Positions 1,503-34,048 of a DNA stretch of 44,659 bases are shown here, in pieces. Below the pieces are notes generated by a model. It was not told the DNA's origin. It worked only from the letters and a program-made list of their open reading frames with translations, and searched no databases. The position numbers were made by a program, and so were the translations under genes. The stretch comes from Bacteroidales bacterium (GTDB taxonomy: Bacteria; Bacteroidota; Bacteroidia; Bacteroidales; UBA932): contig JAFZIO010000007.1 of NCBI GenBank assembly GCA_017554335.1, positions 1 through 44,659 on the forward strand, read 5' to 3'. Position 1 is the stretch's first letter. Every line of letters starts with the position of its first letter.

Positions 1503-2435
1503 TTACTTCAGGGCTGCGATTGCCTTCTGGGCGTCAGCACCGAACTTGGGATCGCTGACTGCCATCTGGTAGTACTCCTTGGCCTTTGCGTTGTTCTTGG
1601 AGTTCTGATAGAGGGCGCCCACGGTGTAAGCCACCTGGCCTGCATTCTTGGCGGTAGGAGCCTCTGCAAGATACTGCTCGAAGTACTTGATGGCGTCTGC
1701 GTTCTTGCCTGCATACTGGCTGGCCATGCCCGCGATGTAGAGGGCGTTGGGGTTCTTGCTGTACTCGTATGCGGTGTTGGCATCCTTCACGGCGTCTGCG
1801 AACTTCTTGCCCTTGAGGTTGGCCTGTGCGGTGGTGAGGTAGATGGAACCCAGACGGAGGTTGGCGTTCTTCTCCTGGCCGTTCTGTGCGGCAAGCTTGT
1901 AAGCCTCGATGGCCTCGTCGTTCTTGCCTGCGCTCCTCAGGGCCTCACCCTTCTGGAATGCTGCGTTGCCGTTGGTGGGGTCAAGCTCGAGAACCTTGGT
2001 GTAAGCCTCTTCTGCGCCTGCGAAATCCTGGGCCTTGAGCAGGGAGGAACCCTTCTGCATGTAAATCTGAGGTATCAGGGCCTCGGCCTTTGCGGCCAGC
2101 TCCTCGTCACCGTACTCGGTAGCGCATGCTGCGGTCTCCTGGAACTTGGCGACAGCCTCATCGTATTTCTTCTCTGCAAGCAGACCCTTTGCTATTGCGT
2201 TCATGGTCTTGGGGATGATATCCTTGCAGGTAGCAACAAGTTCAAGTCCTTCGTCTCCGCAAGCCTCGGCCATCTTGAGGGCCTCCTGGAATCCTTTGAG
2301 GGCGGTAGCGTACTCACCGGCACCAAGGGACTCGTTGGCAAGCTTGGCGGTCTCTGTTGCCTCCGCCATACTCTGTGCGGACAGCATGGTTGCAGCTGCG
2401 AAAAGTGCTGCGAGGGAAACTAAAATCTTTTTCAT
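1503..2435 (-). CDS. Secreted/periplasmic tetratricopeptide-repeat protein
   Basis: 310 residues. A signal peptide (MKKILVSLAALFAAATMLSAQ) is followed by a nearly all-helical chain with the TPR pattern of small and large residues: ALKGFQEAL, AVAKFQET, AEEAYTKVLELDPTNGNAAF, ALYIAGMASQYAGKNADAIKYFEQYL. I count roughly six to seven repeats filling the chain, with no catalytic domain. TPR proteins are protein-interaction scaffolds, so a role in envelope assembly or protein handling is an inference only. It is the first gene of a probable two-gene unit with the U32 peptidase, separated by one base, and has its own TAnnTTTG box upstream. Confidence 0.88.
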   Translation of the reverse strand: MKKILVSLAALFAAATMLSAQSMAEATETAKLANESLGAGEYATALKGFQEALKMAEACGDEGLELVATCKDIIPKTMNAIAKGLLAEKKYDEAVAKFQETAACATEYGDEELAAKAEALIPQIYMQKGSSLLKAQDFAGAEEAYTKVLELDPTNGNAAFQKGEALRSAGKNDEAIEAYKLAAQNGQEKNANLRLGSIYLTTAQANLKGKKFADAVKDANTAYEYSKNPNALYIAGMASQYAGKNADAIKYFEQYLAEAPTAKNAGQVAYTVGALYQNSKNNAKAKEYYQMAVSDPKFGADAQKAIAALK

Positions 2436-2473
2436 ATCTCAACAGTTTTTAGATTCGTTGCAAAATTGAGCGA

Positions 2474-2481
2474 CAAATTTA
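2474..2481 (-). promoter_or_regulatory. -7 box of the TPR gene promoter
   Basis: Read on the minus strand this is TAAATTTG, an exact match to the Bacteroidota -7 consensus TAnnTTTG, 38 nt upstream of the TPR start codon. No good -33 TTTG sits at the ideal distance. Confidence 0.5.
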
Positions 2482-2515
2482 GCAAAAATATTACATTTTG
2501 TGTGCCAAAAAATTT

Positions 2516-2523
2516 TACCTTTG
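2516..2523 (+). promoter_or_regulatory. -7 box of the aspA promoter
   Basis: TACCTTTG matches TAnnTTTG and lies 38 nt upstream of the aspA ATG. A TTTTG at 2496-2500 could serve as the -33 element, although the spacing (15 nt) is shorter than usual. The TPR and aspA genes are divergent and share this 126-bp gap. Confidence 0.5.
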
Positions 2524-2561
2524 TCTAACAAGCACTAAAACTACAGAAACTTACACCCAAA

Positions 2562-3974
2562 ATGCCTGATTTGAAATACAGGGTCGAAAGCGACCTTCTC
2601 GGCGAACTCAAGGTTCCCGCCGACGCTTATTATGGAGTCCAGACTCAGAGGGCTCTCGACAATTACAAGATTTCCACAACCCGCATGTGCCACTATCCGG
2701 AGTACATCATCGCCATGGCCTACGTGAAGATGGCGGCGGCCGCGGCGAATGCCGAACTGGGGGTGCTGGACTGCGAGATTGCAGACGCCATCATAGCCGC
2801 CTGCAAGGAGATTGTGGCCGGCAAGCTGCACGACCAGTTCCCCGTAGACATGATGCAGGGCGGTGCTGGAACCTCCGTTAACATGAACGCCAACGAGGTC
2901 ATCGCCAACCGTGCCCTGGAGATCATGGGCCACAAGAAAGGGGAGTACCAGTATTGTTCCCCCAACGACCATGTGAACTGCGCCCAATCCACCAACGACG
3001 CATATCCTACCGCCTTCCGCTATACCTTTGTGCGCATGAACCGCCACGTCGAGAGGGCCCTGAAGGACCTGATTGCCGCTTTCCGCGCCAAGGGCGACGA
3101 GTTCAACGATATTATAAAGATGGGCCGTACCCAGCTGCAGGACGCCGTTCCCATGACTTCCGGCCAGGAATTCCATGCGTTCGCCAACAACCTGGAGGAA
3201 GAGATTGCCAACCTGGAGCGCAACGTGGTGCTCCTGAAAGAGATAAACATGGGCGGCACCGCCATCGGAACCGGCCTTAACGCCGTTCCCGGTTTTGCCG
3301 AGCTGTGTACCAAACGCCTGAGCGAGTTCTCCGGCGACAGCTTCGAGAAGGCTCCCGACCTCGTGGAGGCAACCCCCGACACCGGCGCATACGTGAGCTA
3401 TTCCGCATCACTCAAGCGTCTGGCCATCAAGCTCAGCAAGATCTGCAACGACCTGCGCCTCATGGCCTCCGGCCCCCGCTGCGGCCTGCATGAAATCAAC
3501 CTGCCTCCAATGGCCCCCGGTTCCTCCATCATGCCCGGAAAGGTGAATCCCGTCATACCCGAGGTCACCAACCAGGTGTGCTTCAAGGTGATAGGCAACG
3601 ACACCACCGTGGCCTTCGCCGCCGAGGCCGGCCAGCTGCAGCTGAACGTCATGGAGCCCGTAATCGTGCAGTCCATACTGGAGAGCCAGACCTGGCTGAC
3701 CAATGTGATGGACACCCTACGCACCCGCTGCATCGACGGCATCACCGTCAATGCCGAGCACTGCTACGAGATGGTCAAGAACTCCATAGGCATAGTCACC
3801 GCCCTTAACCCTTACATCGGTTACAAGACCTCCACAAAGGTGGCCAAGGAAGCCCTGGAGACCGGCCGCAGCGTCTACGACCTGGTGCTGGAGCACGGCT
3901 ACATGACCAAGGAGAAGCTGGACGAAGCTTTGGATCCCAAGGCCATGACGGCATCGCACGATTTCTTGAAGTAA
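2562..3974 (+). CDS. aspA: Aspartate ammonia-lyase
   Basis: 470 residues; E. coli AspA has 478. It catalyses reversible deamination of L-aspartate to fumarate and ammonia in the cytosol, linking amino-acid use to the fumarate branch of anaerobic Bacteroidales metabolism. Family blocks in order: PADAYYGVQT, DQFPVDMMQGGAGTSVNMNANE, NPNDHVN-like SPNDHVNCAQSTNDAYPT, KMGRTQLQDAVPM, and the fumarase/aspartase signature GSSIMPGKVNP, which carries the flexible catalytic-loop serine. The GEYQY and QSTNDAYPT blocks and the overall similarity favour aspartase over class II fumarase. Transcribed alone from its own promoter; the next gene starts 16 nt downstream but has its own -7 box. Confidence 0.93.
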   Translation: MPDLKYRVESDLLGELKVPADAYYGVQTQRALDNYKISTTRMCHYPEYIIAMAYVKMAAAAANAELGVLDCEIADAIIAACKEIVAGKLHDQFPVDMMQGGAGTSVNMNANEVIANRALEIMGHKKGEYQYCSPNDHVNCAQSTNDAYPTAFRYTFVRMNRHVERALKDLIAAFRAKGDEFNDIIKMGRTQLQDAVPMTSGQEFHAFANNLEEEIANLERNVVLLKEINMGGTAIGTGLNAVPGFAELCTKRLSEFSGDSFEKAPDLVEATPDTGAYVSYSASLKRLAIKLSKICNDLRLMASGPRCGLHEINLPPMAPGSSIMPGKVNPVIPEVTNQVCFKVIGNDTTVAFAAEAGQLQLNVMEPVIVQSILESQTWLTNVMDTLRTRCIDGITVNAEHCYEMVKNSIGIVTALNPYIGYKTSTKVAKEALETGRSVYDLVLEHGYMTKEKLDEALDPKAMTASHDFLK

Positions 3975-23032: not shown

Positions 23033-24862
23033 ATGGAACGCAACAACCGCTCTACCAAACTGCTGATAGGGCTCGGGGTGGTGCTGCTGATCCTCCTCGG
23101 GAGGCTGTTCTACGTGCAGATTATCAACGAGAGCTACAAAACGGACGCGGACAACAACTCCATGACGCGGGAGATGATCTACCCGCCGAGGGGCGTCATC
23201 TACGACCGCAACGGCCTGCTGCTGGTGGGAAACCACATCTGCTACGACATCCTGGTCACGCCGCGCCTGGTTACGGAGCTGGACACCCTCGCCCTGGCGG
23301 AGGTCCTCGACACTACGGCCGACTTCATACGGGAACGCATGCAATACTACCACAAGTACCGCTCCCGCATCGGCTGGCAGACCCTCACTTTCCTCAAGCA
23401 GATAGACGCCGACACCTATATGCGCTTCGCCGAGGAGCAGTTCCGCTACCCCGGTTTCAAGGGGCAGGCGCGTACGATGCGCGAGTATCCTTTCAACGCC
23501 GGCGGCAACCTGCTGGGCTATACGTCCGAAGTGAGTGCCGAGTATCTGGCGGACCATCCAGACTACCGGGCGGGCGACTATTACGGACGCACGGGCCTGG
23601 AGGCGGCACGCGAAAGCGACCTCCGGGGCAAGAAGGGCTGGCACATCTACCAGAGGGACTCCCGCGGGCGCACGAAGGCCCCCTATCGCGACGGCGAATT
23701 CGATGTTGAGGCGGAGCCCGGAAAGGACATCGTGACCACCATCGACGCCTACCTGCAGCAGTACGGCCAGCAGCTGATGGCCGGCAAAAAGGGGAGCCTG
23801 GTGGCCATCGAACCCTCCACCGGCGAGATCCTGACCATGGTGTCGAGCCCCGGCATCGACGTGGACGTGCTGGCGGAATTCGGGCGGCACTACGACAAGC
23901 TGAGCCGCGACAAGAACAAGCCGCTCTACAACCGGGCGGTGTCGGCGTCATACCCTCCCGGATCCGTCTTCAAGCTGGTAAACGGCCTCATAGGGCTGGA
24001 GGACGGGGTGCTGGAGCCGTGGATGCAGTACCCGTGCAACGGCGGCTACGTATACACTTCCAGCGGCCGCAAGCTGGGTTGCCACTACCACCGTTCGCCG
24101 CTTAACCTGGAGGACGCGGTTATGATGTCCTGCAACGGCTACTTCTGCTACGTCTTCAAGAACATACTGGAGAACAAGGAGTTCGCCTCCACCGAAGAGG
24201 CGTTCGACCATTGGCGGGAGATGGTGATGAGTTTCGGCTTCGGGCATCCGCTGGGGAGCGATTTCCCGTCGGAGCTCAGCGGCAACATACCTACTTCGGC
24301 ATACTACAACCGTTACTACAGGAAGGGCCACTGGCGCTTTCCCACCATCGTCTCGTTGTCCATCGGGCAGGGGGAGATCCTTACCACGCCGCTGCAGATT
24401 GCAAACCTGGCGGCTATCATGGCCAACCGGGGCTACTACTATATCCCTCATGTGGTCAAGGAATCGGAGGGGGTTGAAATTGACCCCAAATACTACGAGA
24501 AGCAGTACACCCTGGTAGACACCCTCCAGTTCCCCAAGGTCATACGCGGCATGTGGAAGGCGGTGAACGCCATTGGCGAGGGCGGAACGGCCAATGTGGG
24601 CCACGTGCCCGGCTTGAACATCTGCGGCAAGACGGGTACGGCCCAGAACCCGCACGGCAAGGACAATTCGGTGTTTATCTGCTTCGCGCCTATGGACAAC
24701 CCCAAGATTGCGGTGGCTGCATATATAGAGAACGCAGGCTTCGGGGCCAGCTGGGCTACTCCTATCGCCACGCTGCTGGTGGAGAAATATCTGCGCGGTG
24801 AGATTTCGGACGGACGCAAGGACCTCGAATACAGGGTGCTTCATACTAAACTCATCAGGTGA
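23033..24862 (+). CDS. mrdA: Penicillin-binding protein 2 (elongation transpeptidase)
   Basis: 609 residues. Inner-membrane class B PBP: one N-terminal helix (LLIGLGVVLLILLGRLFYVQII), the dimerisation/pedestal domain beginning at YPPRGVIYDRNG, and a transpeptidase with S311-V-F-K314 in PPGSVFKLVNG, SCN in MMSCNGYFCY and K533-T-G in CGKTGTAQNPHGK. It cross-links new glycan strands made by RodA. The 3' end overlaps rodA by 4 nt. Confidence 0.95.
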   Translation: MERNNRSTKLLIGLGVVLLILLGRLFYVQIINESYKTDADNNSMTREMIYPPRGVIYDRNGLLLVGNHICYDILVTPRLVTELDTLALAEVLDTTADFIRERMQYYHKYRSRIGWQTLTFLKQIDADTYMRFAEEQFRYPGFKGQARTMREYPFNAGGNLLGYTSEVSAEYLADHPDYRAGDYYGRTGLEAARESDLRGKKGWHIYQRDSRGRTKAPYRDGEFDVEAEPGKDIVTTIDAYLQQYGQQLMAGKKGSLVAIEPSTGEILTMVSSPGIDVDVLAEFGRHYDKLSRDKNKPLYNRAVSASYPPGSVFKLVNGLIGLEDGVLEPWMQYPCNGGYVYTSSGRKLGCHYHRSPLNLEDAVMMSCNGYFCYVFKNILENKEFASTEEAFDHWREMVMSFGFGHPLGSDFPSELSGNIPTSAYYNRYYRKGHWRFPTIVSLSIGQGEILTTPLQIANLAAIMANRGYYYIPHVVKESEGVEIDPKYYEKQYTLVDTLQFPKVIRGMWKAVNAIGEGGTANVGHVPGLNICGKTGTAQNPHGKDNSVFICFAPMDNPKIAVAAYIENAGFGASWATPIATLLVEKYLRGEISDGRKDLEYRVLHTKLIR

Positions 24863-26154
24863 TGCAAGAGGGTATTCTGGACAGGGGATTGAAGAAAACG
24901 GTAGACTGGCGGCTTATCATCGTCTATCTGCTCATCATGCTCTTCGGCTGGATCAATATCTATGCGGCCGTGCGTTCCGGGGAGCCTTCGTCCATCTTCG
25001 ACCTGAGTTTCAACTGCGGCAAGCAGGCCCTCTGGATAGCCGGGGCGCTGGTGCTGGCGGCAGTTATTCTGTTCGTGCTGAACCCCTACATGTGGGAGAG
25101 TATCGCGCGACCTGCGTATGGGGTTGTGCTGGTGCTGCTGGTTCTGGTTATCTTCCTGAGCAGCAACGTAAAAGGTTCACATTCGTGGTTCGAGCTGGGG
25201 CCGGTGAAATTCCAGCCGGCGGAATTGTCGAAGATAACCACGTCGTTGCTGCTGGCGTCGCTCATGAGCCTGCCGGGCTTCAAGATGAGCAACTGGAGGC
25301 ATGTCCTGCTGGCGGTAATGGTAGTGCTGCTGCCCATGCTGGTGATAGTCGCCGAAAGCGAGACCGGCTCGGCCCTGGTGTACGTGGGATTCATTTTTGT
25401 CCTGTATCGCGAGGGGCTGTCCGGATGGTGGCTGGGACTGATGGGGATGGCGGTGCTGCTGTTCGTGGTTACGTTGAAGACCAGCTGGTGGGTGTCGCTG
25501 ATTCTGGTGGCTGTTTTTGCGGCGGTATATCTGGTATATTATCTGCGGCGCGTGTCGTCCCTGCGGTTCAGGCGTATGGTGGTGAGGAACGGCATCATCG
25601 GCTTCGTAGCCGGCGTGGTGCTGGTTTTTGCTGCGGATGTCTTCTTCAATAATGTGCTGAAGGATTACCAGCGAGAGCGTATCGAGGTGCTGCTGGGAAT
25701 GAAGGAGGACCTGAAGGGAGTGGGCTACAACGTGCACCAGTCGCTTATTGCCATAGGCTCGGGAGGACTGTTCGGGAAGGGCTACCTGCATGGTACCCAG
25801 ACCACATTCGGATTCGTGCCGGAGCAGAGCACGGACTTCATTTTCTGTACAGTGGGGGAGGAGTGGGGCTTTGTGGGCTGCCTGTTCGTCATTCTGCTGT
25901 ACGGCCTGCTCATTTTCTGGCTGGTTCAGGATGCCGAGAGGTCGCGTACCGCGTTCACCCGCATCTACGGCTATTGTGTGGCCGCATGCTTCTTTATGCA
26001 CCTGTCCATCAATCTGGGTATGACCCTGGGGCTTATGCCGGTGATAGGTATCCCGCTGCCGCTGTTCAGCTACGGCGGCTCGTCGTTGTGGGCCTTTACC
26101 GTGCTGCTGTTCATCTTTATTTCCCTGGACAGGCAGGAGAAGAAGTACTTCTAA
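24859..26154 (+). CDS. rodA: RodA peptidoglycan glycosyltransferase (SEDS)
   Basis: 431 residues with about ten membrane helices. SEDS hallmarks: KGSHSWFELGPVKFQPAELSK (catalytic periplasmic loop region, with conserved Gln-Pro-Ser/Ala-Glu), ESETGSALVYVGFIFVLY, and the late GMTLGLMPVIGIPLPLFSYGGSS. RodA polymerises glycan strands with PBP2. Last gene of the rod-shape operon; the convergent HAD gene ends 11 nt away and no clear terminator separates them. Confidence 0.95.
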   Translation: MMQEGILDRGLKKTVDWRLIIVYLLIMLFGWINIYAAVRSGEPSSIFDLSFNCGKQALWIAGALVLAAVILFVLNPYMWESIARPAYGVVLVLLVLVIFLSSNVKGSHSWFELGPVKFQPAELSKITTSLLLASLMSLPGFKMSNWRHVLLAVMVVLLPMLVIVAESETGSALVYVGFIFVLYREGLSGWWLGLMGMAVLLFVVTLKTSWWVSLILVAVFAAVYLVYYLRRVSSLRFRRMVVRNGIIGFVAGVVLVFAADVFFNNVLKDYQRERIEVLLGMKEDLKGVGYNVHQSLIAIGSGGLFGKGYLHGTQTTFGFVPEQSTDFIFCTVGEEWGFVGCLFVILLYGLLIFWLVQDAERSRTAFTRIYGYCVAACFFMHLSINLGMTLGLMPVIGIPLPLFSYGGSSLWAFTVLLFIFISLDRQEKKYF

Positions 26155-28141: not shown

Positions 28142-28441
28142 GCCTTGGTGGTGAAATGGTAGACACGAGGGACTTAAACATAATTTGAGTGCACTTTCAG
28201 AAATGAGAGATGCAGAATGTCGTAAATTCAAGGAAGCCTTAACGGGTAATGCCGATGGTAATCTTGAGCCAAGCCTCTGAAAAGAGGAAGGTGCAGAGAC
28301 TAGACACGACACACCTAAAGATCTTGGATCCATGGTGAAGGAATAGTCCGGACCACAAACAGAAATGGTGGCGAAAGCCATAGTGGCAAGAAAATCCCTT
28401 GGCCCGAAACGGCCGTGCGGGTTCGATTCCCGCCCGAGGCA
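28142..28441 (+). tRNA. tRNA-Leu(UAA), interrupted by a group I intron
   Basis: Exon 1 is 28142-28175 and exon 2 is 28391-28441, together 85 nt with discriminator A73 at 28441; CCA is not encoded. The acceptor stem GCCUUGG pairs with CCGAGGC (one G-U). Other parts: D-arm with GGUGGUGAAAUGGUAGAC, anticodon stem AGGGA/UCCCU with loop CUUAAAA giving anticodon UAA, a long class II variable arm (GGCC/GGCC), and a T arm GCGGG-TTCGATT-CCCGC. The split falls after U34. The 3' end is also an integration core reused twice downstream. Confidence 0.93.
28176..28390 (+). ncRNA. Group I intron (tRNA-Leu type, probably IC3), 215 nt
   Basis: Inserted between U34 and A35, the same place as cyanobacterial and plastid tRNA-Leu(UAA) introns, and ends in G (28390). 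P1 pairs exon ACUU with GAGU (28187-28190), with U-G at the splice site. A P2 hairpin UGCA-CUUUC/GAGAG-a-UGCA follows. The P4/Q region has AAUUCAAGG with AAUCUUGAGCC. The R element GUGCAGAGACUAGA and the S element AAUAGUCC form P7 (GACUA/UAGUC). No homing endonuclease gene is present. Splicing activity is inferred, not shown. Confidence 0.9.
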
Positions 28442-28496: not shown

Positions 28497-29300
28497 TCAT
28501 TTCAGAAGTTTTCTGTTGCTTTCTTCTCCCTCTAGTACGGACATCTGCTGAATTGCGATAGCATTAAGTCTGCAGAGCCTTTCCGCCTGAATTACCCCTT
28601 CGTTGATGAAAATGGCATTCAGGCTTTCCATATTGGAAAGGCAGATGAGCTGGTTGATAGTAGCGTAGTCGCGGATATTTCCCTTTAGTTCCGGATTGGC
28701 ATCCCGCCATTCTTTCGCTGTCATGCCGAACAGGGCCACATTGAGCACGTCTGCTTCATTTGCGTAGATAATTGATATCTGCTTCTCAGAAACCTCGGGC
28801 GGAATCAAGTTCTGTTTGATCGCATCGGTATGGATACGGTAGTTCACTTTAGAGAGTTCGCGCTTTGCCGTCCATCCGATGAGCTTCTGCTCCTCTTCCT
28901 TAAGCCGTTGGAATTCACGGATAAGATAGACCTTGAATTCCGGGCTAATCCACATCGCGAACTCGAAAGCGATGTCCTTGTGAGCATATGTGCCGCCATA
29001 ACGCCCGGCTTTGGAAACTATGCCGATGGCGTGGGTCTTCTCCGTCCATTCTTTAGCGCTGAGGCGGAAATTGTTGAGCCCCGCCTTACTTTTAATTATG
29101 TCGAATTCGGCAGAATTAAACTCAGGATTGAATACTTTTTCCCAAGTCCCCAGGAACTCGACGGTGTTCCTATTACGTAGCCAATTGTGAAAGAAAAACT
29201 CCCCATCTTTGGAGCGCATCATATCCGTGAGACTGATGAAGTCCTCACTTCCAACTTTAACCACCGTTACTGAGACGCCACTTACATCTATCTTTGCCAT
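28497..29300 (-). CDS. KilA-N domain protein
   Basis: 267 residues from the ATG at 29300 (MAKIDVSG); an upstream in-frame start at 29321 is possible. The KilA-N fold is recognisable: FISLTDMMRS, FFFHNWLRNRNTVEFLGTWE, and YGGTYAHKDIAFEFAMWISPEFKVYLIREFQRLK (near residues 95-130). The C-terminal half is helical with ALFGMTAKEWRDANPELKGNIRDYATINQLICL. KilA-N proteins are DNA-binding and typical of phages and mobile islands, often as antirepressors. It lies 42 nt downstream of the XRE gene on the same strand inside a tRNA-borne segment. Confidence 0.85.
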   Translation of the reverse strand: MAKIDVSGVSVTVVKVGSEDFISLTDMMRSKDGEFFFHNWLRNRNTVEFLGTWEKVFNPEFNSAEFDIIKSKAGLNNFRLSAKEWTEKTHAIGIVSKAGRYGGTYAHKDIAFEFAMWISPEFKVYLIREFQRLKEEEQKLIGWTAKRELSKVNYRIHTDAIKQNLIPPEVSEKQISIIYANEADVLNVALFGMTAKEWRDANPELKGNIRDYATINQLICLSNMESLNAIFINEGVIQAERLCRLNAIAIQQMSVLEGEESNRKLLK

Positions 29301-29342
29301 AGTTTCATCCCTTAATTTCAATTATCTTCGTCGGATTCAGTT

Positions 29343-33744: not shown

Positions 33745-33870
33745 AATATAGGGCCATACCCCATTCTTGAATGACGTCACTGTTAGGTAGCCCCGGCGGC
33801 GGCCGGCCGGGGAGGAGAGCCCTATGGACGTTGCTCGCCGCAACCCGGCCGAGCCGCAGCCGCCGCGGCC

Positions 33871-34048
33871 CAAGAGCACCCTCCAGCGGGCCAGAATAGC
33901 AGGGAAACATGGCAATCGGGCCCAAGAGCACCCTCCAGCGGGCCAGAACAGCAGGGAAACATGGCAATCGGGCCCAAGAGCACCTTCCAGCGGGCCAGAA
34001 CGGCAGGGAAACAAGGCAATCGGGCCCAAGAGCGCCCTCCAGCGGGCC
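33871..34048. repeat. 52-bp tandem repeat, 3.4 copies
   Basis: Units 33871-33922, 33923-33974, 33975-34026 and a partial one at 34027-34048; they differ at only a few positions each. The 52-bp period is not a multiple of three, so frames rotate and the reading frames across it are not a repeat protein. Confidence 0.9.

Follow-up and report, generated by a model that had tools for sequence, protein, structure and literature searches.

The tRNA-Leu(UAA) introns of cyanobacteria and plastids are mainly inherited vertically, an ancestral intron with subsequent descent having been argued for them, and we know of none that carries an endonuclease gene. The endonuclease of the tRNA-fMet intron of Synechocystis is a PD-(D/E)XK enzyme. 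The intron described here shares, as we take it, the tRNA, the U34/A35 site and the general core with the cyanobacterial and plastid introns, and presumably also resembles the introns of Azoarcus and Anabaena.

According to an excerpt of PMC11835236, group I introns are widespread in plant chloroplast tRNA genes, IC3 being the main plant subtype, and the Synechocystis tRNA-fMet group I intron is named in a portion of PMC8450103. The relevant sections of a 2014 review (PMC3984707) saw little evidence for movement of bacterial group I introns between species, placed all phage introns then known in protein genes and described collaborative homing for two phages. Introns in tRNA genes, of unstated type in the excerpts, have since been reported from large and often gut-dwelling phages, namely Lak megaphages (PMC6784885), with one tRNA-Tyr intron listed for the baboon Lak phages, and a set of 262 jumbo phage genomes (PMC13037316). 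Excerpts on Jug phages (PMC12363816) and crAss-like phages (PMC7886860), which have Bacteroidota hosts, report many group I introns together with HNH enzymes.

The window analysed here is a stretch of 44,659 nucleotides, contig JAFZIO010000007.1 of the Bacteroidales assembly GCA_017554335.1. A first-pass annotation, made from the sequence alone, had proposed that a tRNA-Leu(UAA) gene in it becomes whole only when 28176-28390 is removed, that the removed piece is a group I intron at U34/A35, and that this copy has no endonuclease; it had named a covariance-model search as a check. With introns permitted, ARAGORN called a tRNA-Leu(taa) and placed in it, at 34-35, an intron of 215 nt that has the same boundaries. 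The group I model RF00028 matched end to end (model 1-253) at 28166-28372 with 56.1 bits (E 1.1e-11; cut-off 50), and was the sole Rfam family above cut-off in the whole window. Neither an endonuclease gene nor any ORF of at least 60 residues was found in the 215 nt of the intron, so that all three proposals were borne out. The element has the P3-P8 and P4-P6 domains, the guanosine site in P7 and the terminal G of group I introns as well as their U.G pair where the 5' exon ends, and its ARAGORN-placed site in tRNA-Leu(UAA) is that of subtype IC3, position alone being compared. Its identity as a group I intron and its predicted fold are firm. A tRNA finder run without introns reported zero tRNAs in the window, a warning that tRNA finders can overlook an essential tRNA in such genomes, as has already been remarked for other tRNAs in the excerpted part of PMC8450103. 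The coordinates are collected in Table 1. Just downstream of the split tRNA gene lies a KilA-N domain gene (28497-29321, minus strand), followed by an HTH gene, and further on a tandem repeat of 52 bp x 3.5 copies with 95% matches (33867-34048).

Table 1. Features of the window discussed in the text (positions as in the window).
Feature	Coordinates	Strand	Details	Basis
rodA-type gene	24859..26154	+	Host marker; beside the same tRNA gene in several relatives, intron or not	Pfam FTSW_RODA_SPOVE
Split tRNA-Leu(UAA) gene	28142..28441	+	Exons 28142-28175 and 28391-28441, 85 nt once spliced	ARAGORN, introns allowed
Group I intron	28176..28390	+	215 nt; separates U34 from A35 and ends in G (omega G)	RF00028, 56.1 bits; ARAGORN boundary
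P1	28172..28190	+	ACUU/AAA (28172-28178; slash, splice site) with internal guide UUUGAGU (28184-28190); U28175.G28187 at splice site; loop is the location of the HNH gene in relatives	By eye
P2 hairpin	28190..28214	+		Consensus fold, compensatory changes
P3, around P4, P5 and P6	28218..28311	+	P3 strands 28218-28223/28306-28311; P4 28228-28233/28262-28267; P6 28268-28294	Consensus fold, 57 cores
P7 pseudoknot	28298..28348	+	GACTA (28298-28302)/TAGTC (28344-28348), invariant	Alignment A2, by eye
P8 hairpin	28312..28337	+	Loop holds a zinc-finger/HTH domain in some phage introns	Consensus fold; phage inserts
P9 hairpin	28368..28381	+		Consensus fold

The fold was assessed across relatives. Out of 76 loci examined, 68 contained a complete intron, giving 57 distinct cores, and eight were cut or off-pattern. 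From these 57 cores RNAalifold recovered P2, P3, P4, P5, P6, P8 and P9, with compensatory changes on both sides in 24 of the 51 predicted pairs. P7 does not vary among the cores, so that covariation speaks neither for nor against it, and RNAalifold pairs its bases otherwise because pseudoknots are beyond what the program draws.

The split gene is apparently the only tRNA-Leu(UAA) gene of the cell. The first-pass annotation had named an uninterrupted second copy, with the split one unspliced in RNA-seq, as an observation that would speak against its reading; no second copy was found among the 43 places outside the split gene that match RF00005 (44 matches in all at E<=10, the split gene contributing merely a 16-bit half), although in a genome of 2.35 Mb and 75 contigs that is 87.57% complete this falls short of proof. 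The uninterrupted tRNA-Leu genes read at these places have the anticodons CAA, TAG, CAG and GAG. Across the family, the pattern of an uninterrupted tRNA-Leu(UAA) gene was present in 206 of 299 genomes, distributed as 3 of the 40 genomes with an RF00028 match (two weak ones of genus g6, and G216) against 203 of the 259 others, and it was thus missing in 37 of the 40. Neither intron nor uninterrupted pattern was found in 56 of the 299, and a search repeated with laxer filters on 16 genomes (15 with neither form, and G042, which has an uninterrupted copy) returned one weak match.

The intron is not an isolated case. An RF00028 match at E<=0.001 occurs in 40 of the 299 family genomes, its own included, and in 26 of the 143 good ones. 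Thirty of these 40 introns were fetched and read, the remaining ten including the two weak g6 matches (28 and 24 bits); all 30, 29 of them from other genomes, lie at a single shared site in tRNA-Leu(UAA). At the level of the phylum, 32 of 392 genomes had a match, its own included. ARAGORN placed 23 of the 29 fetched phylum loci (L083-L111) in split tRNA genes, some calls being doubtful, with tRNA-Arg(UCU), tRNA-Leu(CAA) and tRNA-Leu(UAA) among them, and four of the 29 lie in 23S rRNA. By these counts, Bacteroidota tRNAs with a group I intron are no rarity. In other Bacteroidota families (L087-L098), group I introns were seen in tRNA-Arg(UCU) and tRNA-Leu(CAA), some genomes having two or three matches. 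Group I introns in tRNAs are as such known, and we found no paper on those of Bacteroidota or on this lineage in the openly licensed literature; the statement of the first-pass annotation that it knew of no well-described Bacteroidota case can be kept in this bibliographic sense, but not in the sense of a solitary intron.

The first-pass annotation had further taken the missing endonuclease to point to vertical descent or reverse splicing, which is not supported by the family as a whole. Seven of the 30 introns fetched from the family, all at the same site, are 705-731 nt long and carry an HNH ORF in the P1 loop; both of the two searched against Pfam were over cut-off in HNH, and one in HNH_3, and another search placed one HNH ORF in PHROGs family phrog_10822 (E 1.1e-43). 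The HNH alignment found no match among PDB sequences at E<=0.01. Four more introns hold remnants of the ORF, namely L056 (intron of 429 nt), L060 (305 nt), L034 (271 nt) and, weakly, L032, with perhaps an 11-nt trace. The other 19, the window intron among them, are free of any HNH trace. Most of the HNH-bearing relatives that have a name are MAGs of Bacteroidales, sampled from the rumen, the omasum or the faeces of horses. Candidatus Cryptobacteroides onthequi is one of them, and Candidatus Cacconaster equifaecalis, whose core (L146) is identical to that of a genome of the window's family (L035), is another. The genome of the window may itself belong to a Cryptobacteroides-like genus.

The core closest to that of the window (93.2%) belongs to an HNH-bearing intron of another genus (L048), and past the core edge the window copy has nothing in common, the longest exact match being 8 nt. 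Cores almost identical to each other occur with an insert (L121) and without one (L055). Classed by intron length and not per ORF, 33 of the 57 cores come from introns of at least 600 nt, four from shortened introns and 20 from introns without insert, a set enriched in HNH-bearing introns because 28 cores came from the HNH search. The core tree is weak, with good support for 4 of its 54 branches; HNH state changed 17 times on it against a shuffled mean of 18.5, and the order from HNH-bearing to HNH-free is therefore not polarised by it.

Since RF00028 often fails on relatives, a model termed R1 was built from 20 Bacteroidales cores of the window's type, the window included, its E-values being rough. 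By construction, it matches the window (28212-28319, 136.9 bits). At E<=0.1 its hits were the window and, among 51 further sources, the 19 that had been read as intron-bearing, the remaining 32 giving no hit; over 247 genomes across the order (1e-5, strict filters), it returned only the own genome and one weak case. Four phage introns scored 124 (L183), 119 (L180), 118 (L182) and 103 bits (L179), further phage introns were distant (27-86 bits), and Prevotellaceae-type introns reached 28-32 bits. Among other Bacteroidota loci, 25 of 30 scored 14-81 bits, those in tRNA-Leu(UAA) 71-73. On these scores, the nearest ribozymes found outside the Bacteroidales group are phage tRNA-Leu(UAA) introns. 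In GenBank, a 735-kb uncultured phage has a tRNA-Leu(taa) with a 205-nt intron (R1, 91.7 bits). A 595-kb uncultured phage (L340, 868-1654) has a 700-nt intron in tRNA-Leu(UAA), marginal with R1 (E 0.057), in which the same HNH family lies in the P6 region and not in P1, pointing to a separate invasion. Of 11 viral contigs with an intron, 5 had a terminase match (PF03237) over cut-off, as had 2 of 3 with a free-standing HNH gene, and the best named match of the terminase of one phage contig, among the matches listed, was 28.8% identical.

RF00028 itself, at E<=0.001, detected two of 12 viral loci (L220 and L221) but no intron in 14 bacterial HNH loci; at E<=10 it found L170, and not L156, L159, L160, L164, L183, L184, L191 or L202; and among L337-L341 it found L341 alone. 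P7 and the splice ends are legible by eye in many of the RF00028-negative relatives. ARAGORN labelled L163, L202, L170, L221, L337 and L338 as Ser, Stop or Leu(gag) owing to a misplaced splice site, the exons read by eye being those of tRNA-Leu(UAA).

Two further observations concern such relatives. In the Prevotella phages Lak-B1 and Lak-C1 (L337, 1172-1915; L338, 1173-1907), tRNA-Leu(UAA) apparently contains two group I introns: the first follows GGTA in the D-loop (R1 E 2e-6 and 1.5e-7), and the second, at U34/A35, was recognised by eye and matched neither R1 nor RF00028. Piecewise matches to the window gene occur in ten Lak records. A conjugative Bradyrhizobium plasmid (L341, 995-1285) has a tRNA-Leu(UAA) with a 204-nt group I intron (R1, 76 bits), and four such plasmids match.

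We consider it likely that the window holds a self-splicing intron that has spread by HNH homing, probably carried by phages, and that is endonuclease-free in this genome. The precursor tRNA would be transcribed and the intron would excise itself through the usual two guanosine-initiated transesterifications, joining U34 to A35. An HNH enzyme encoded in the P1 loop of related alleles would cut the uninterrupted tRNA-Leu(UAA) gene, repair of the cut gene would copy the intron in, and the HNH gene would then decay because occupied sites are immune, the window intron representing the endonuclease-free stage of a mobile element. Large phages with tRNA-Leu genes and close relatives of the intron would be the likeliest carriers between hosts, and their tRNA arrays may supply free-standing enzymes as well as introns. 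Mobility is supported by the pattern of occurrence, and the phage carrier step is the least certain part.

How far host descent could account for the same pattern was judged with RodA as a host marker. On a RodA tree of 61 of the 62 sampled genomes of the genus (21 with the intron, 33 without and 7 of unknown state), intron state changed 7 times, or 8 times if unknown is taken as without, against a shuffled mean of 17.5, and at least 6 changes were forced by well-supported branches (unknown counted as without). Intron presence is patchy yet clustered on the host tree, and the clustering indicates that part of the descent is vertical. An intronless genome (G283) is nested in an otherwise intron-bearing clade, and its tRNA gene adjoins rodA as in the intron genomes G280 and G275, so that the locus is the same in all three. 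Eight of the 62 genus genomes show neither form of the gene, which counts against spread by homing as the main explanation.

It could be argued that the family ancestor already had the intron, that it was lost independently in many lines and that the HNH gene is a later passenger. Such old vertical inheritance would be in keeping with the clustering (8 changes against 17.5), with the rodA-tRNA neighbourhood common to intron-bearing and intronless genomes, and with an AU test that did not reject the window intron as sister to the introns of its nearest hosts (p 0.62). However, in the 17 of 21 intron genomes whose introns were fetched, core distances do not track RodA distances (r 0.087, p 0.29), though two halves of RodA track each other well (r 0.62, p 0.0001) and short RodA pieces still gave r 0.38-0.76; moreover, the order-wide R1 search yielded just 2 of 247 genomes, yet close copies exist in some phages. 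We therefore regard purely vertical descent as unlikely. The suggestion of lateral transfer as one option in the first-pass annotation gains from the patchy distribution and from the core distances that do not follow those of the hosts. A direct claim that the window intron itself jumped between hosts was dropped in view of the AU test, and its core, which differs by 12% from those of the nearest hosts by RodA (88.3% identity), could also be that of a fast-evolving vertical intron.

A route without endonuclease, in which free intron RNA reverse-splices into tRNA-Leu and is then reverse-transcribed and recombined into the genome, seems rather improbable: the 19 trace-free introns would suit it, but one HNH family occupies one loop in 7 of the 30 introns and in many further Bacteroidales loci (the latter found via the HNH search), and homing is the simpler route. 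That the element is a decayed, non-splicing insertion or an assembly artefact in a tRNA pseudogene, as a draft genome in 75 contigs might invite one to suspect, is scarcely credible given the full RF00028 match, the presence of both exons, the fit of P2-P9 to the family fold, the recurrence of the arrangement in all 30 fetched introns, 29 of them from other genomes, and the failure to find another TAA gene.

Returning to spread by HNH homing, relatives of the enzyme were also found outside introns. When viral contigs were scanned with the HNH alignment, 80 of 107 relatives were kept, and the scan of genome contigs gave 67 loci. From these, 64 loci were taken, namely the viral L179-L229 and 13 bacterial ones that belong neither to the Bacteroidales nor to the Prevotellaceae introns, leaving 50 after removal of near-copies. 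Twelve of the 50 lie within a split tRNA, 37 outside and one without a nearby tRNA; L183 was counted in the 37 though it lies within a degenerate split tRNA. The nearest tRNA was Leu in 32 of the 37 outside loci, where the tRNAs present in these loci would lead one to expect 17.7; none of a million simulations reached 32, and in loci with at least three tRNAs Leu was nearest in 23 of 27 against 9.2 expected. Among 12 more distant phage homologues, picked by name or accession, an annotated tRNA-Leu adjoins in four (Munch, GodonK, S-CRM01 and Cronus), four are not beside tRNA-Leu (Bop, Dorin, LCK69 and phiSA012), two have no annotated tRNA in the stretch (Atu_ph07 and Dulem virus 42), and two more are without annotation, so that the preference for Leu is confined to near relatives. 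The HNH tree, with 82 rows, requires 10 switches of state (intron-borne or free-standing), at least 4 of them forced, and the Bacteroidales form is one clade. The L180 HNH protein found nothing among plasmids at 1e-5.

In a Paludibacteraceae locus (L170, 2107-2959), an HNH-free group I intron in tRNA-Leu(UAA) is followed 89 nt downstream by a free-standing HNH gene, a possible collaborative-homing pair. Two other arrangements were noted. A viral tRNA-Leu (L194, about 2417-3343) is split by an HNH-zinc-finger-HTH gene, with no R1 match and no ribozyme core, so that an endonuclease gene was perhaps put straight into a tRNA gene there. In Hymenobacter cavernae (L165, 2477-3046), the tRNA-Leu(UAA) gene is uninterrupted (2963-3046) and is overlapped by the end of a free-standing HNH frame (2477-3016).

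In five phage loci (L179, L180, L182, L183 and L185) and one bacterial locus (L163), a single stop-to-stop frame of 279-317 residues takes in, in this order, HNH before the core, P2-P7 and a zinc-finger/HTH domain in P8, after which it ends. Both domains, joined by a short linker, recur in free-standing homologues such as L188, L197, L194, Atu_ph07 and Munch. The Pfam scores for HNH were below its cut-offs or slightly above them, and the second domain was recognised weakly. In the Bacteroidales introns, the HNH frame enters the core and ends there or in P7, without the second domain. The openness of the core frame was rejected as a sign of protein-level selection, since HNH-free introns are often open as well and openness alone proves nothing; the argument for one frame rests on the six loci and on the two-domain free-standing homologues.

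Taken together, these observations allow a wider proposal, for and against which we find the case evenly poised: a tRNA-Leu-directed HNH family would shuttle repeatedly between a free-standing form beside tRNA-Leu genes and an intron-borne form in tRNA-Leu(UAA), in phages and bacteria, the ribozyme core being translated in one form as the linker that connects the nuclease of P1 to the DNA-binding domain of P8; phages with tRNA arrays would bring the intron into gut Bacteroidales, where the enzyme would be lost again, and the window intron would be the last stage. If this is true, one stretch would be catalyst and coding sequence alike. A single ribozyme lineage can here be traced across the alleles that related bacteria have of one essential tRNA gene: intronless, with HNH, with decaying HNH and HNH-free. 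It is accompanied by close copies in phage tRNAs and by free-standing relatives of the enzyme beside tRNA-Leu, and this combination opens the proposed cycle, in which invasion is followed by homing and loss, to direct tests in bacteria.

Compared with the cyanobacterial and plastid tRNA-Leu(UAA) introns, the lineage of the window differs in having relatives with an HNH gene, a patchy distribution and close copies in phages. With the Synechocystis tRNA-fMet intron it has in common a small ribozyme in the anticodon loop and, in its relatives, an endonuclease gene in a peripheral loop; different from that system, the enzyme is of the HNH type, is encoded in the P1 loop by a frame that runs into the core, and has free-standing family members beside tRNA-Leu. 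The excerpts of the Lak and jumbo phage reports (PMC6784885, PMC13037316) that mention tRNA introns name no group I type, no tRNA-Leu(UAA) and no HNH gene. The introns of Jug and crAss-like phages, as far as the excerpted reports describe them (PMC12363816, PMC7886860), sit in protein genes (for example terL, nrdD and DNA polymerase), whereas the present lineage sits in a tRNA gene. Collaborative homing, as outlined in PMC3984707, differs in that the target here would be a tRNA gene, its cleavage being putative; it is alike in that free-standing HNH genes beside tRNA-Leu and HNH-free tRNA-Leu(UAA) introns occur in the same set of phages and bacteria, both being present together in the Paludibacteraceae locus L170.
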